Shown here in pieces: positions 1,351 through 26,282 of a stretch of DNA of 64,000 bases. The stretch covers positions 3,322,001 through 3,386,000 of the forward strand of contig NZ_CP041636.1 in the NCBI RefSeq assembly GCF_007197755.1, written 5' to 3'. Both the position numbers and the translations under genes were made by a program. The notes beneath the pieces were generated by a model. That model did not search any database and was not told the DNA's origin. It was given only the letters and a program-made list of their open reading frames with translations. Positions within the stretch are counted from its first letter, which is position 1; every line of letters starts with the position of its first letter. The stretch comes from Ferrovibrio terrae (GTDB lineage: Bacteria > Pseudomonadota > Alphaproteobacteria > Ferrovibrionales > Ferrovibrionaceae).

Positions 1351-3477
1351 ATGGGGGCGCTGGAAAGCGGGTTTGAGCTGCCGCGGCGCGCGATACGGGT
1401 ATCATCGGTCGCGCTGGTTTGCGTTGTCGTGCTGCTGGCTTGCCTGGCACCGATCGGCTTCGTCACATGGCATGCCTGGCAATCGCGTGCTGCCGCGCTG
1501 GAGCGTGGCTTCGCTGAGGCCGAAGACCTGGTCCAGGCGCTGAGCCAGCATGCCGCGCGCACTTTCGCAGAACCCAACCTGATCCTTCAGGATGCCATCG
1601 AGCATGTGCAGTCCGATGGTACCGGACCGGCAGCACAGCAGCGCCTGCATAAAATCCTTGTGAATCACATCAAGACTTCGCGGGTGATCCGCGAACTCGG
1701 CGTTCTGGATGAGCGGGGCTACTGGCGGAACTCGTCGCTGCCCGTGCTGCCGACGCACAGCAACGGCGACCGTGAATATTTCATCTACCATCGCAACAAC
1801 CCCGACGGCGGGCTGCGCATCAATACGCCGATCCTCAGCCGCCTGACCGGCAAATGGACAATTCTGGTCACCCGGCGCATCAACGATGCCGACGGCGGCT
1901 TCGCAGGCATCGCGCTTGCTTCCATCGGCACCGAGTACTTCCAGGCTTTCTACGATACGCTGAATGTCGGCACCCTTGGTCATGTCGGGCTCTATCGCGA
2001 CGATGCGCGGTTGCTGGTACGCCGACCATTCGTGGAATGGCACCTGACCTCGGATCGCTCCCAGGCCTTTTTCGAGGCCACGCAACGCCAGCCTGTCGGC
2101 CGTTTCCATGGCGCTTCGGTTTATGACGGCATCACGCGTCTGGCAGCCTGGCGCACACTGGAGGATTTCCCGCTGATCATGACGGTCAGTCGTGCCGAAA
2201 CCGATGTACTGGCAGCCTGGCGCAAGTCGGCAGACGTAGATATTGCGGTTGCGGCCGGGGCATCCATCATCATCATGCTGCTCGGTAGCCTGTCGGTGAT
2301 CCTGCTGCGTCGACGCATCCATGCCGAGAGTGTCGCCGCCGAAGCTGGCCGGCAATATGCCATGCTTGCCGAAACCGCCACTGACGTGATCGTGCGGATC
2401 AGCCCCGCCGGCAGGCGGTTATACGTCTCGCCGGCCAGTCGCGACGTGCTCGGATACGAACCTGAAGAACTGCTGAAGCAAAACCTGACGGATATCGTGC
2501 ATCCCGATGATGTTGTCGTGCTGGAACAGACAATGACGGCTCTGCAAAGCGGCACGCCGCGCAGCACGGTGATCTATCGCGGTCGACACAAGGATGGCCA
2601 TTATGTCTGGCTGGAAATTGCCTTCCGCGCAGTCCTCGATCCGGACACCGGTTTGCTGCGTGAGATCATGGCCAGCACGCGCGATATCAGTGCACGCAAA
2701 CTGTCGGAACTGCAGCTGGCGCGCGCCAAGGAAGCGGCCGAGATCGCCAATCGCGCCAAATCGAGCTTCCTGTCCGGCATGAGCCATGAACTGCGAACAC
2801 CGCTGAATGCCATTATCGGTTTTTCGGATCTGATGGTGAATGAACTGTTCGGTCCGATCAGCAATCAGAAATATGCCGGTTATGCGCGCGACATCAAGGC
2901 GAGTGGCGAGCATCTGCTCGATCTGATCAACGACATCCTCGATCATGCCAAAATCGAGGCCGGCCAGTTTGAATTGCATGAAACAGCTCTGGATCTGGCA
3001 GAGGTGATGGAATTCACGGTTCATATGGTGGCGTTGCATGCCGAGCAGGCAAAACTCTCCTTGCACGTCGACGTTCAATCCGGCATTCGCCTGTTTGCCG
3101 ATGAAAGACGCATCCGCCAGATACTGCTGAACCTGCTCAACAATGCGATTAAATACACGCCCGAAGGCGGTCATGTCCGGGTCGGCGCCGATTTCAGCGC
3201 CGACGGCGGTCTTTTGCTGATCGTATCGGATACCGGTATTGGTATGTCCGCGGCTGATCAGCAGCGTGCATTGCAGCCATTTGCCCAGATCGACAATGAA
3301 CGGAACCGCAGCCAGCAAGGCACCGGACTTGGCCTGACGCTGACGCGCCGGCTCGCCGAACTGCATGGCGGGCGACTTGATTTGCGCAGCGCCGTAGGCG
3401 AGGGAACGACGGTGACTGTGACATTCCCGGCAGGACGCGTTCTGGCGCGGCCGAAGCCTGAAGCGATGCCGGCTTAG
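1351..3477 (+). CDS. membrane PAS-domain sensor histidine kinase with periplasmic Cache-like sensor
   Basis: A 708-residue kinase. Two membrane segments (about residues 15-38 and 297-320) enclose a roughly 255-residue periplasmic region resembling double-Cache sensors (REYFIYHRNN, INTPILSRLTGKW). A PAS domain with PAC follows (about 335-455), then a HisKA domain with phospho-acceptor His near residue 479 in MSHELRTPLNAIIGF. The HATPase_c domain has the N box NLLNNAIKYTPEGG, the DTGIGM G1 box and the GTGLGL G2 box. It lacks a receiver domain, so it would phosphorylate a separate response regulator, none of which is adjacent. The signal is unknown. The start has only a weak ribosome site. Its stop overlaps the end of the convergent flagellin gene by four bases. 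Confidence 0.9.
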   Translation: MGALESGFELPRRAIRVSSVALVCVVVLLACLAPIGFVTWHAWQSRAAALERGFAEAEDLVQALSQHAARTFAEPNLILQDAIEHVQSDGTGPAAQQRLHKILVNHIKTSRVIRELGVLDERGYWRNSSLPVLPTHSNGDREYFIYHRNNPDGGLRINTPILSRLTGKWTILVTRRINDADGGFAGIALASIGTEYFQAFYDTLNVGTLGHVGLYRDDARLLVRRPFVEWHLTSDRSQAFFEATQRQPVGRFHGASVYDGITRLAAWRTLEDFPLIMTVSRAETDVLAAWRKSADVDIAVAAGASIIIMLLGSLSVILLRRRIHAESVAAEAGRQYAMLAETATDVIVRISPAGRRLYVSPASRDVLGYEPEELLKQNLTDIVHPDDVVVLEQTMTALQSGTPRSTVIYRGRHKDGHYVWLEIAFRAVLDPDTGLLREIMASTRDISARKLSELQLARAKEAAEIANRAKSSFLSGMSHELRTPLNAIIGFSDLMVNELFGPISNQKYAGYARDIKASGEHLLDLINDILDHAKIEAGQFELHETALDLAEVMEFTVHMVALHAEQAKLSLHVDVQSGIRLFADERRIRQILLNLLNNAIKYTPEGGHVRVGADFSADGGLLLIVSDTGIGMSAADQQRALQPFAQIDNERNRSQQGTGLGLTLTRRLAELHGGRLDLRSAVGEGTTVTVTFPAGRVLARPKPEAMPA

Positions 3478-4307
3478 CCGGCGGCGGCGCCGCGATACAG
3501 CTGCACCAGGGTGGCCTGGCGGCTGGACGACAGGCTGAGGGCTGCGACGCTGAGCTGCTTCTGTACAGCAAGCGAAGCAAGCACGGCGTCATTTGCCGAG
3601 ATGTCGCTGTCGACCAGCGCACCGACACCGAACCGCATCGCATCGACCAGGGACTCGTTGAAATCCATCTGCAGTGTCAGCTGCCGCCGCACGATAGCGA
3701 AATCCGCAATCGCTGCGGTGGAGGCGGAGGTCAGCGGTTCGATCAGGTTATAGGCGGCGCTGGCCGTGGTGGCGTCAGTGATGGCATCAATCGCGCTGCT
3801 CAATGCGCCATGCTCGGCGCTCATGTCGAAGACCGGCACCGTAAAGCTGTTGCCGGCAAAGTCGGCGATGAAAGTGGCCGTCGTCGAACTGGCGAGTAAC
3901 TGGTTGCGGCCCTGGAAGCTGCCCTGATTGACGATAACGAGCATCTGCTGGGCCAGCTGCTGTCCGTCACTGCGATAAATGCTGCGCTGCGCATCCGACA
4001 GTGAACCATCAGATGCCTTGATCAGGGTGGAGCGCATATTGTCGGCCAGCTGCAAAACACCGTTAAGAGCGGCAATGGTGACGTCGATCAGGCCGATGCC
4101 CTGTTGCATGGACGAGTGCGCGGCGGCGTGGGCACGGAAATTCGTGCGGATACCCTGGGCGACAGCAAAGACAGAGGCATCGTCAAAAGCATCAGCGACG
4201 CGAAAGCCGGTTTCCAGCTGCTTCGACGTCATGTCGATCTGTGCGTCAGTGATACGCAACGCGGCAATAGCCGACATCGCGCCGTAATGAGTGTTAATTG
4301 ACGTCAT
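3474..4307 (-). CDS. flagellin family protein
   Basis: A 277-residue protein with both conserved flagellin ends. The N-terminus begins MTSINTHYGAMSAIAAL and continues through TGFRVADAFDDASVFAVAQGIR, matching the alphaproteobacterial flagellin D0/D1 helix. The C-terminus has DSDISANDAVLASLAVQKQLSVAALSLSSSRQATLVQLYRG, cut here as the usual D1/D0 helix. The central variable region is short, so the filament subunit would be small. Flagellins are exported by the flagellar type III system and polymerise outside the cell. No hook, chaperone or export genes are next to it; motAB lie near 43-44 kb in this window. Only a weak ribosome site precedes ATG 4307, but the N-terminal sequence fixes the start. 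Confidence 0.85.
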   Translation of the reverse strand: MTSINTHYGAMSAIAALRITDAQIDMTSKQLETGFRVADAFDDASVFAVAQGIRTNFRAHAAAHSSMQQGIGLIDVTIAALNGVLQLADNMRSTLIKASDGSLSDAQRSIYRSDGQQLAQQMLVIVNQGSFQGRNQLLASSTTATFIADFAGNSFTVPVFDMSAEHGALSSAIDAITDATTASAAYNLIEPLTSASTAAIADFAIVRRQLTLQMDFNESLVDAMRFGVGALVDSDISANDAVLASLAVQKQLSVAALSLSSSRQATLVQLYRGAAAG

Positions 4308-4835
4308 TCAGTTGCGCGCAGGGCTTAACGCGCCCTGGTCCCCCGATAACCTTCTCTATCCCTGCATTTTTTGCATGTGGTTAATGAAGTGTAAATACAG
4401 AATCTGCAACCGGTTCATGATTCGCGAGCGGGGCAGATAAATTAATCCGATGGCTGATTAACCTTAACGGGACTTGATTGAGCGCGAACAATATGAGAAC
4501 ATAAAACTTAAAGCCGGCCCCGGATGGTCGTCGCGAACCCGGACGAACCACCGAGAACGCTCACGAACTCCTACGAACCCGCACGAACGCCCGCGAACCA
4601 GCACGAACGCCAGCGAACCGGCACGAAGCAGGACGAGCTGCTGCGAAGCCGGATGAATGCGAACCAGGCTGCCCTGGGCATTTGGGTAGCTTCCTGTGGG
4701 TAACTAGTTGTTCGGGCTGACTTTCACGTTAGCTGATGGGGGCCGGTGGCTTGTCGAGCCGGTGATCCTGTCCCATCCTGCGCGCCTTGATACTCTTGCG
4801 CGCTTTTACTGGCGACCCTGCCGCGGAGCTTCCCG
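4308..4835. other. 528-bp intergenic region with promoter-like and repeat content
   Basis: No convincing gene lies here. The left part (4308-4500) is AT-richer than its surroundings and contains several TTAA/TTAAC words, including TTAACCTTAA at 4458-4467, and probably holds the flagellin promoter on the minus strand. The middle (4531-4660) is a 10-bp phased repeat array, described separately. The right part (4661-4835) precedes the GST gene and shows nothing else I can name. A TTG-started 60-codon frame crosses the array but is Arg/Thr-rich only because of the repeat. Confidence 0.6.
4531..4660. repeat. 10-bp phased tandem array of CGAAC-N5 units
   Basis: CGAAC or a one- or two-base variant begins at 4534, 4544, 4554, 4564, 4574, 4584, 4594, 4604, 4614, 4624, 4634, 4644 and 4654, exactly every 10 bases. 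The first five bases of each unit are conserved and the second five vary. Two consecutive 20-base blocks (4582-4601 and 4602-4621) agree at 18 of 20 positions, so duplication built at least part of it. The period is about one helical turn, so all copies would face the same side of DNA. Function is unknown. Confidence 0.85.
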
Positions 4836-5540
4836 ATGATCGACCTGTATTACTGGCCCACCCCGAACGGCCACAAGATCACCCTGTTTCTGGAAGAGGC
4901 AGGTATTCCCTACACCATCAAACCGGTGGCGATCGGCAAGGGCGAGCAGTTCAAGCCGGACTTCCTGGCGATCAGCCCGAACAACCGCATGCCGGCCATC
5001 GTTGATACCGCGCCCGCCGATGGCGGAGCGCCGATCAGCGTGTTCGAGAGCGGCGCGATCCTGCTGTATCTCGCCGACCGCTACAAAAAGTTCATCCCGC
5101 AGGATCTGCGCGGCCGTGTCGCCTGCACCGAATGGGTGATGTGGCAGATGGGCGGACTGGGGCCGATGTGCGGCCAGAACCATCACTTCACCCAGTATGC
5201 ACCCGAGAAGATCGAGTATGCGATCAACCGCTATGTCAACGAGACCAACCGTCTCTATGGCGTGCTGAACAAGCGGCTCGACGGCCGCGCCTTCATCTGC
5301 GGCGACGACTACACGATTGCCGATATGATGAGCTATCCCTGGATCGTGCCGCATGAGCGCCAGAGCCAGAAGTTGGAAGACTTCCCGAACCTGAAGCGCT
5401 GGTTCGACAGTATCTGGGCCCGTCCCGCCACCAAGGTGGCCTACGAGAAGGGCAAGGCGATCAACCAGGGCATCCCGGTGATGACCGAGGAGGCCAAGAA
5501 GGTTCTGTTTGGTCAGACCGCCGGCGTGGTGAAGGGGTAG
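4836..5540 (+). CDS. glutathione S-transferase, YfcG/YghU-like disulfide-bond oxidoreductase type
   Basis: A 234-residue GST with the features of the nu-class (YfcG/YghU) group: N-terminal MIDLYYWPTPNGHKITLFLEE (first strand and Thr/Asn active-site region), SPNNRMPAIVD before the cis-proline, and VFESGAILLYLADR for the glutathione gamma-glutamyl contact. The WVMWQMGGLGPMCGQNHHF block is also typical. In this group the enzyme usually binds two glutathiones and acts as a disulfide reductase rather than a transferase. CGGAG precedes ATG 4836 by a normal distance. It is paralogous to the GST at 6072. Confidence 0.9.
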   Translation: MIDLYYWPTPNGHKITLFLEEAGIPYTIKPVAIGKGEQFKPDFLAISPNNRMPAIVDTAPADGGAPISVFESGAILLYLADRYKKFIPQDLRGRVACTEWVMWQMGGLGPMCGQNHHFTQYAPEKIEYAINRYVNETNRLYGVLNKRLDGRAFICGDDYTIADMMSYPWIVPHERQSQKLEDFPNLKRWFDSIWARPATKVAYEKGKAINQGIPVMTEEAKKVLFGQTAGVVKG

Positions 5541-25444: not shown

Positions 25445-26181
25445 ACGGCCACAGCTTTCTGCAGCGCGGCCTGCACGCCGCGTAGCACGGGCAGCACGGA
25501 TGCCGACAAGGGATCACGCGGCGCGGCCGGCGATAACACGGCAGCCTGCTGCAGGCTGGCCGGCTGGCCGCTCAGGATGAAGATACGGTTGGCAAGACGG
25601 CAGGCTTCGGCCGGATCATGCGTCACCAGCAGCACGGTGCGATGCGCCAGCATCTCGCTGGCCAGCTCCTGCATCGCCGCGCGTGTGATCGCATCCAGTG
25701 CCGAGAAGGGCTCGTCCATCAGCACCAATGGCCGGTCTTCCATCAGCGTGCGCGCCAGGGCTGCGCGCTGGCGCATTCCGCCAGAGAGAGAGGCCGGCAG
25801 GGCAGTGGCGCGGTCGGCCAGGCCAAGCCGCGTCAGCAGGGTCTGTGCCAGCGCAATGTCGGGTACTTCTCCGCGCAGGCGTGCGCCGAGCAGGATGTTG
25901 TCCTGCAGGCTGAGCCAGGGCAGCAGCAGGTCCTGTTGCGCCATCCAGGCAGCCTGGCCAGCGAAAGGGGAGGATTGGCCAGGCAGCAGGCCGGCGATCA
26001 GGCGGAGCAGTGTGCTCTTGCCGCAGCCGCTGGCGCCCAGGATCGCCACCGTTTCGCCGGCAGCAAGGTCGAGCGAGAAGGGTGCGAGCACAGCGCGGTT
26101 GCCATAAGCGAAACCGCTGCCTTCCAGCCGGAAGGCCGGCGCAGATGCGGACGGAGGAAGGGAGATGGAGTCTGCTGACAA
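25441..26181 (-). CDS. thiZ: ABC transporter ATP-binding protein (ThiZ)
   Basis: A 246-residue ABC ATPase. Walker A is GASGCGKST, the signature is LSGGMRQRAALAR, Walker B is RPLVLMDEPFSALD, and the switch His lies in LLVTHDPAEA. The frame has no ATG near its N-terminus; TTG 26181 is proposed because the GGGA of the TPP riboswitch 3' end lies about nine bases upstream. If so, ligand-dependent folding would directly mask the ribosome site. A downstream start is possible, since the first 15 residues are low-complexity. First gene of thiZXY. Confidence 0.87.
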   Translation of the reverse strand: MSADSISLPPSASAPAFRLEGSGFAYGNRAVLAPFSLDLAAGETVAILGASGCGKSTLLRLIAGLLPGQSSPFAGQAAWMAQQDLLLPWLSLQDNILLGARLRGEVPDIALAQTLLTRLGLADRATALPASLSGGMRQRAALARTLMEDRPLVLMDEPFSALDAITRAAMQELASEMLAHRTVLLVTHDPAEACRLANRIFILSGQPASLQQAAVLSPAAPRDPLSASVLPVLRGVQAALQKAVAV

Positions 26182-26187
26182 ACCGCT

Positions 26188-26282
26188 GATCCCTACGCCG
26201 GTATCAACCGGATCAGGTTCGAGGGGTCGTCCGGCTCACCCGGACCTCTCAGCCGCCAATCGGCTCCCCCTCAGCTGGGGCC
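26188..26282 (-). ncRNA. TPP riboswitch (THI element)
   Basis: On the minus strand the leader contains GGCTGAGAGG, a variable P3 hairpin (TCCGGGTGAGCCGGA), GACCCCTCGAACCTGATC and the conserved TPP core ending GATACCGGCGTAGGGA. These are the pyrimidine- and pyrophosphate-binding halves of the thiamine pyrophosphate aptamer. The aptamer ends about 7 bases before the proposed TTG start of thiZ, indicating control of translation initiation. It would switch off the thiZXY importer when TPP is abundant. Confidence 0.93.

Follow-up and report, generated by a model that had tools for sequence, protein, structure and literature searches.

Short tandem repeats dispersed between genes are a known kind of bacterial sequence. 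In cyanobacteria, the STRR sequences form dispersed intergenic arrays of short degenerate heptamer tandem units of unknown function, and we know of no link between them and an operator-bearing promoter. The arrays described here resemble STRR in their scattered intergenic placement and in their short, degenerate tandem units, and differ from them in having 10-bp units instead of heptamers. CRISPR arrays are built differently: they are accompanied by cas genes, and their repeats, about 20-50 bp long, alternate with unique spacers of comparable length.

Direct repeats of the heptamer TAACTGA have been reported in Beggiatoaceae, cyanobacteria and Bacteroidetes; in the accessible part of that account they are dispersed and mostly intergenic, lie upstream of genes without a common function, and in some sets recur at corresponding sites of related strains that differ there by the gain or loss of one unit (PMC4679880), features that the arrays here share. 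The differences, as far as the same part of the account allows, are that the TAACTGA unit has 7 nt and often ends 1 nt before the start codon (PMC4679880), whereas the arrays here have 10-15 units of 10 bp with a conserved core and a variable half, lie 3' of a LexA-type promoter box and have a variable half that changes in concert. Neither the main class nor the related ones, with units of 20 or 21 bp, have the 7-nt unit of the STRR/TAACTGA kind. The published Caulobacter LexA box has the form GTTC-N7-GTTC, and alphaproteobacterial LexA operators, in the portions of the sources available, resemble the boxes found here in their GTTC half-sites, in the 7-bp gap and in lying over the promoter -10 element (PMC12700426, PMC6237742); they differ in that the boxes here adjoin housekeeping genes and are followed by phased arrays, LexA control being putative. 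In listings of open-licence literature, no paper was found on such arrays in the genus or on operator-linked, helically spaced 10-bp arrays. The original prediction made for this locus did not include the dispersed family, the box at the LexA-type promoters or the exchange of array classes at a single place, and the sequence comparisons suggest that the arrays may be an undescribed regulatory module beside damage-response-type promoters.

The array between the flagellin and glutathione S-transferase genes

The window, that is the whole stretch of 64,000 bp that was analysed, belongs to the genome of Ferrovibrio terrae (G000; 4,264,634 bp), which was compared with nine other genomes of the genus (G001-G009). 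The features surrounding the array are the following:

3474..4307, - strand: flagellin-like protein (Pfam Flagellin_N), divergent neighbour of the array (ORF and domain scan)
4486..4500, - strand: putative LexA-type box GTTCTCATATTGTTC (on the + strand, GAACAATATGAGAAC), 33 bp 5' of the array (box search)
4534..4663, + strand: array of 12 exact-phase 10-bp units CGAA(C/G)NNNN(A/G) and a degenerate 13th (pattern match, Tandem Repeats Finder)
4691..4835, + strand: conserved stretch from the array to the glutathione S-transferase start (CTGTGGGTAACT...GATCCTGTCCCATCCTG...), alignable in G001 and G002
4836..5540, + strand: glutathione S-transferase (GST_N, GST_C), same-sense neighbour of the array (ORF and domain scan)

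The phased array of thirteen 10-bp units that had been predicted is real, with 12 exact units filling 4534-4653 and a degenerate unit (TGAAT) at 4654. Eight units start with CGAAC and the remainder with AGAAC, CGAAG, CGAGC, CGAAG and TGAAT. The agreement of neighbouring 20-base blocks at 18 of 20 positions was recovered at 4574-4593 and 4594-4613, and the ORF coordinates confirm the gap of 528 bp between the flagellin start (4307) and the GST start (4836). Tandem Repeats Finder reports 4532-4627 with period 20 (score 108) and with period 10 (score 60). The GST gene has orthologues in all ten genomes of the genus, and the stretch 4691..4835 is probably its promoter or leader. The LexA-type box is unchanged in G001, differs at 2 of 15 positions in G002 and, unlike most copies, is directed away from the array. 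Elsewhere the window holds a TPP riboswitch (26173-26280, - strand) and three tRNAs, which are ordinary.

It could be argued that the array is coding sequence, given that a 59-aa ATG ORF (4524-4703) and a 60-aa TTG ORF (4474-4656) span it, that at least one + frame is open in 39 of 40 arrays, that the 21-bp classes have a unit that is a multiple of 3, and that in G008 a predicted gene contains the array found at the window's place. Against this, the absence of a protein-coding period noted in the original prediction was upheld, the 10-bp period rotating the frame; open frames come easily in T-poor sequence, and in six of ten G008 arrays not all + frames are open. The prediction had itself raised the case that the array might be part of a conserved protein, but the orthologous place holds unalignable arrays of another class and not a conserved protein. 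A coding role is extremely improbable.

A dispersed family with a near-invariant step

In G000 (4.26 Mb), (CGAAC-N5)x3 matches 85 times and its reversed control 0 times, so the window array is not a product of chance; a 9-bp-period version has 0 matches in all ten genomes of the genus. The 85 matches were grouped by hand into 21 arrays of 5-15 units each, on which most of the G000 counts below are based. With a 22nd array near recA, richer in CGAAG units, there are at least 22 in this genome, scattered and on both strands; those at L042 and L046 are each split by an 11-bp step. Genome-wide, the unit reads CGAA, C/G, four variable bases, A/G. A relaxed pattern has 136 matches in G000, 37 in G001, 37 in G002, 18 in G005 and 29 in G008, and none in G003, G004, G006, G007 and G009; arrays are present in four of the nine other genomes and five of the ten are array-less. 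In a set of 96 relatives from 85 genera, the strict pattern turned up in 5, all of one genus. The relaxed pattern was not found outside the genus: 2 of 385 genomes of the class match, in one genus of 276. Among the matches listed (80 loci in named genomes), four belong to the genus, and the rest are mostly perfect repeats of a 5- or 10-mer.

The 500-bp flanks of the 21 copies are mutually unrelated except for those of L042 and L046, therefore the array itself is the repeated thing. Twenty of the 21 lie outside predicted genes, the L032 array overlapping a weak 262-aa prediction, and the family thus occurs in many copies at unrelated intergenic places, as do other short tandem repeats dispersed between genes. 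In 15 of 21 arrays the gene on the 5' side is divergent, and in 14 of 21 the one on the 3' side has the same sense; array gaps (n=20) comprise 10 divergent, 8 tandem and 2 convergent ones, versus 13, 30 and 4 of the other gaps (n=47). Among the 40 of 42 array neighbours that were scanned (two of L048 being left out) no gene theme, SOS included, was found. They include ribosomal proteins L13 and S4, adenylosuccinate lyase, nucleoside diphosphate and cytidylate kinases, a ClpB-like ATPase, methylmalonyl-CoA mutase, GST and flagellin. Two other identities were considered and rejected: a MITE or insertion element with ends, no element ends being common to the flanks beyond the array in the 21 copies, and a CRISPR array, for which the original prediction had rightly called the units far too short, with a 5-bp core and a 5-bp variable half that is re-used across arrays.

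Between CGAA(C/G) cores, 327 steps are of 10 bp, 1 is of 11 and 0 are of 9 (L177 and L180 left out). This near-invariant step is compatible with repeated protein binding, and to that extent the same-face geometry of the original prediction would hold. The spacers have diverged to saturation and the step has been kept, which would imply either selection on spacing or constant in-register rebuilding. In periodic stretches outside predicted genes, the best lag is a multiple of 10 or 21 in 40 of 40, this being a biased sample in which most stretches were fetched for holding arrays. Inside predicted genes, 12 of 14 best lags are multiples of 3, and the two exceptions are themselves arrays, L032 (lag 30/20/10) and L180 (lag 21). 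Coding tandem repeats with many internal similarities were also seen near recA (L171:1-1200 and L253:7130-8501), with a 24-bp lag in L171. A rule of 10.5 bp, drawn at the outset from +1 spacing steps (12 vs 0), lost most of its weight: most of these are one recurring 11-mer (L034, L042, L044, L046), which together with L171 and L183 leaves about three independent events, and the 10.5-bp argument is therefore weak.

The original prediction had also considered DNA bending, which was not supported: a wedge model gives no intrinsic curvature beyond the control in four of five species. Intrinsically curved DNA, either as phased A-tracts or as a wrapping signal, is very improbable. In G000, AA does recur each 10 bp with G+C-rich spacers, and the arrays bend by 7.6 versus 5.6 for column-permuted units; however, one in four column permutations bends equally, and the arrays of the other four species bend less than permuted ones because AA is also found half a turn away. 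By the same model, the curvature above composition- and period-matched DNA that marks phased A-tracts was not seen.

A LexA-type promoter box beside the arrays

The arrays are linked to a box of the form GTTC-N7-GTTC. Nine exact copies lie within 400 bp of the 21 arrays versus 3 in 205 kb of background, and half-site gaps of 5, 6, 8 and 9 give 0-2 matches; the one-mismatch form shows no excess near arrays by count (16 vs 9-18). The boxes were then counted by a score that had first been fitted to those of G000: one was found at most 330 bp 5' of 19 of 21 G000 arrays and 3' of 0 of 21; in the relatives, where many loci are orthologues, it was found 5' of 15 of 19 and 3' of 1 of 19. The same score gave 107 in 3000 random windows and 8 in 50 other intergenic gaps. 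No box was found within 330 bp at L030, L032, L177, L180, L181 and L184. The array begins 19-207 bp beyond the box, which is directed toward it in 30 of 34 cases, the exceptions being the window, L031, L178 and L033 (a tie). The box overlaps the promoter -10 element, its centre being a -10-like TATAAT. With array-locus elements chosen in + orientation, the promoter match toward the array is better in 28 of 45 and worse in 10, and toward the array 19 of 45 elements have TTG at 16-18 bp, versus 4 of 45 the opposite way. Exact GTTC-N7-GTTC is found at all eight lexA loci examined, and recA of G000, G001, G002, G005 and G008 has a one-mismatch form of it. The sites at the promoters near arrays have the form of a LexA/SOS operator and are putative targets of LexA. 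For CATCGTGAATATGTC, a candidate conserved leader motif, 9-mers were common to at most 6 of 45 leaders.

A promoter directed into the array in most copies, with a box of the lexA form and nearly of the recA form, raises the question of whether the array is transcribed. It may be proposed that SOS-controlled short non-coding transcripts are made, a T-poor and weakly structured RNA with CGAA in each 10 nt binding an RNA protein or a Rho-like factor, and in keeping with this the T content of the array strand is 0-5% and its RNA is weakly structured (MFE per nt -0.07 to -0.20). But single-stranded RNA needs no exact 10-nt steps, RNA structure and unit order have no effect, and intrinsic terminators 3' of arrays are in no excess (7 of 40 vs 8 of 40 on the other strand). 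Moreover, other array classes are less T-poor, the window box is directed away from its array, and no Rfam match at gathering level was found at array or leader in the window and in 18 of 20 other G000 loci. Such transcripts are a decidedly unlikely explanation.

Boxes also occur away from the CGAAC arrays. The pattern GTWCNNNWWNYGTTC has 28 matches in G000 (control 9), 13 at arrays, one 0.7 kb away and 14 elsewhere. Judged by eye, 8 of these 14 have other arrays downstream, of the types (G)ATAAGCNNCG (about 10 bp), AAACNGGACG/AAACTGGCTC (20 bp) and the 21-bp class. At these 14 box loci, which lack a CGAAC array, the best downstream lag is 10, 11, 20 or 21 in 7 cases (8 of 100 controls) and has f>=0.5 in 5 (0 of 100 controls). 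The 20-bp class AAACNGGACG/AAACTGGCTC was seen downstream of LexA-type boxes in G000 at L251:2490-2760 and L246:2537-2800. An exact 17-mer of the 21-bp class has only 3 matches, in 2 of 10 genomes, and this class is therefore more degenerate than the pattern used.

Matches to GTWCNNNWWNYGTTC versus control in the array-bearing genomes are 28/9 (G000), 29/12 (G001), 33/10 (G002), 23/15 (G005) and 18/16 (G008), so that G008 has arrays with hardly any box excess; in the array-less ones they are 6/9 (G003), 8/20 (G004), 4/19 (G006), 8/24 (G007) and 3/7 (G009). An excess is also seen without CGAAC arrays in genomes of other genera (G010 14/8, G011 29/13, G016 13/7); the box is therefore not peculiar to arrays, and this fits ordinary LexA regulons.

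Fixed places, concerted units and candidate explanations

The arrays keep their places between species. Of the 19 array loci of G001, G002, G005 and G008, 12 adjoin orthologues of the genes next to the 21 arrays, and three more (L170, L171, L181) match further G000 box or array loci, which gives 15 of 19; L177, L182, L184 and L185 had no match among the G000 loci compared. The prediction would have lost its ground if the phase were absent from relatives, and a phased array is kept at many matching places. The sequence of the array is another matter: the window's place holds a 21-bp array in G001, a CGAA array in G002 and a CGAACNGGAT array in G005 and G008, the flanking box and GST leader being alignable across G000, G001 and G002, and the place of L251 holds a 20-bp array in G000 versus a CGAA array in G001. 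Two places hence hold different array classes in different species. Each genome has its own vocabulary of units, which are closer to those of other arrays in the same genome than to those of orthologues: 16-mer sharing is 0.054 within a genome (267 pairs), 0.0067 between orthologous arrays (14 pairs) and 0.0087 between non-orthologous arrays of different genomes (499 pairs), and 13 of the 14 orthologous pairs have zero 16-mers in common. In G008 (L179, L181, L182, L184, L186), 10-bp units of the ATAAGCGCCG type were observed to adjoin the CGAAC array on its 5' side and to keep its register.

The reading that we tentatively prefer, at somewhat less than even confidence, is that the array may serve, in connection with a LexA-type promoter, as a multivalent platform for protein binding. 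The window array would be one copy of a dispersed, clade-specific intergenic module of two parts, a GTTC-N7-GTTC box over the promoter -10 followed by a helically spaced array (10 bp; in places 20 or 21). A protein would read CGAA(C/G), or the equivalent core of other classes, on one face of the helix and bind cooperatively along the array, and the bound array might then set the local state of the neighbouring promoters by repression, insulation or supercoil handling, possibly with LexA acting jointly with the array-binding protein. Since other array classes are without CGAAC, one protein cannot read all of them by that core. The GAAC core is the LexA half-site on the opposite strand, but the other classes are without GAAC, so that a reading of the arrays by LexA itself is only a sub-hypothesis. 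The uniform vocabulary within a genome could arise by co-evolution with the protein or by recombination between arrays.

Concerted evolution of this kind is also what would be expected of neutral or selfish short tandem repeats, which slippage and recombination would grow into 10- or 21-bp arrays in the permissive spacer by an old promoter box and which gene conversion would homogenise, the array itself being functionless. The higher 16-mer sharing within genomes than between orthologues, the replaceability of array sequence and even class, the array-less half of the genus and the unrelated neighbour genes all agree with this account. It is, however, somewhat unlikely: the arrays retain their position, orientation and exact 10-bp step even where the spacers have reached saturation, every intergenic period in the biased sample noted above is a helical multiple, and the box linkage on the 5' side is strong.

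The binding-platform reading may be extended to a network for the Ferrovibrio clade, in which some 30-40 LexA-type promoters with their arrays would serve as landing strips for a fast-evolving DNA-binding protein; the vocabulary would co-evolve genome-wide and the code would be species-specific, with places, spacing and operators fixed and classes swappable without loss of the element. This larger picture is speculative and rather unlikely. If the arrays are binding platforms, dozens of housekeeping genes in one genus would be wired to LexA-type promoters via an element type that the papers searched do not describe, and the concerted unit change would be a natural record of protein-site co-evolution; if they are neutral, they would represent a clean case of concerted evolution in dispersed tandem repeats at fixed bacterial loci, with exact 10-bp spacing. 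On either reading, the arrays make the upkeep of helical spacing in bacterial intergenic repeats testable.

Similar units were also noticed in distant lineages. Metagenome-assembled genomes of Schlesneria (L056, L060, L071, L085, L096, L102) have a dispersed planctomycete element, in which a degenerate [CGAACTYGAT]n precedes a conserved stretch with ...GTCGAAGTCGATCGAACTTGATCGAACTTTGACACC at its end. Degenerate CGAAC 10-bp arrays are found in Chloroflexota/Dehalococcoidia (L049, L053, L057, L084, L109, L113, L114), apparently an independent case in another phylum, and after several of them come 10-bp units resembling AACCTGAAAA, along with an inverted repeat around CTGGAGATC.
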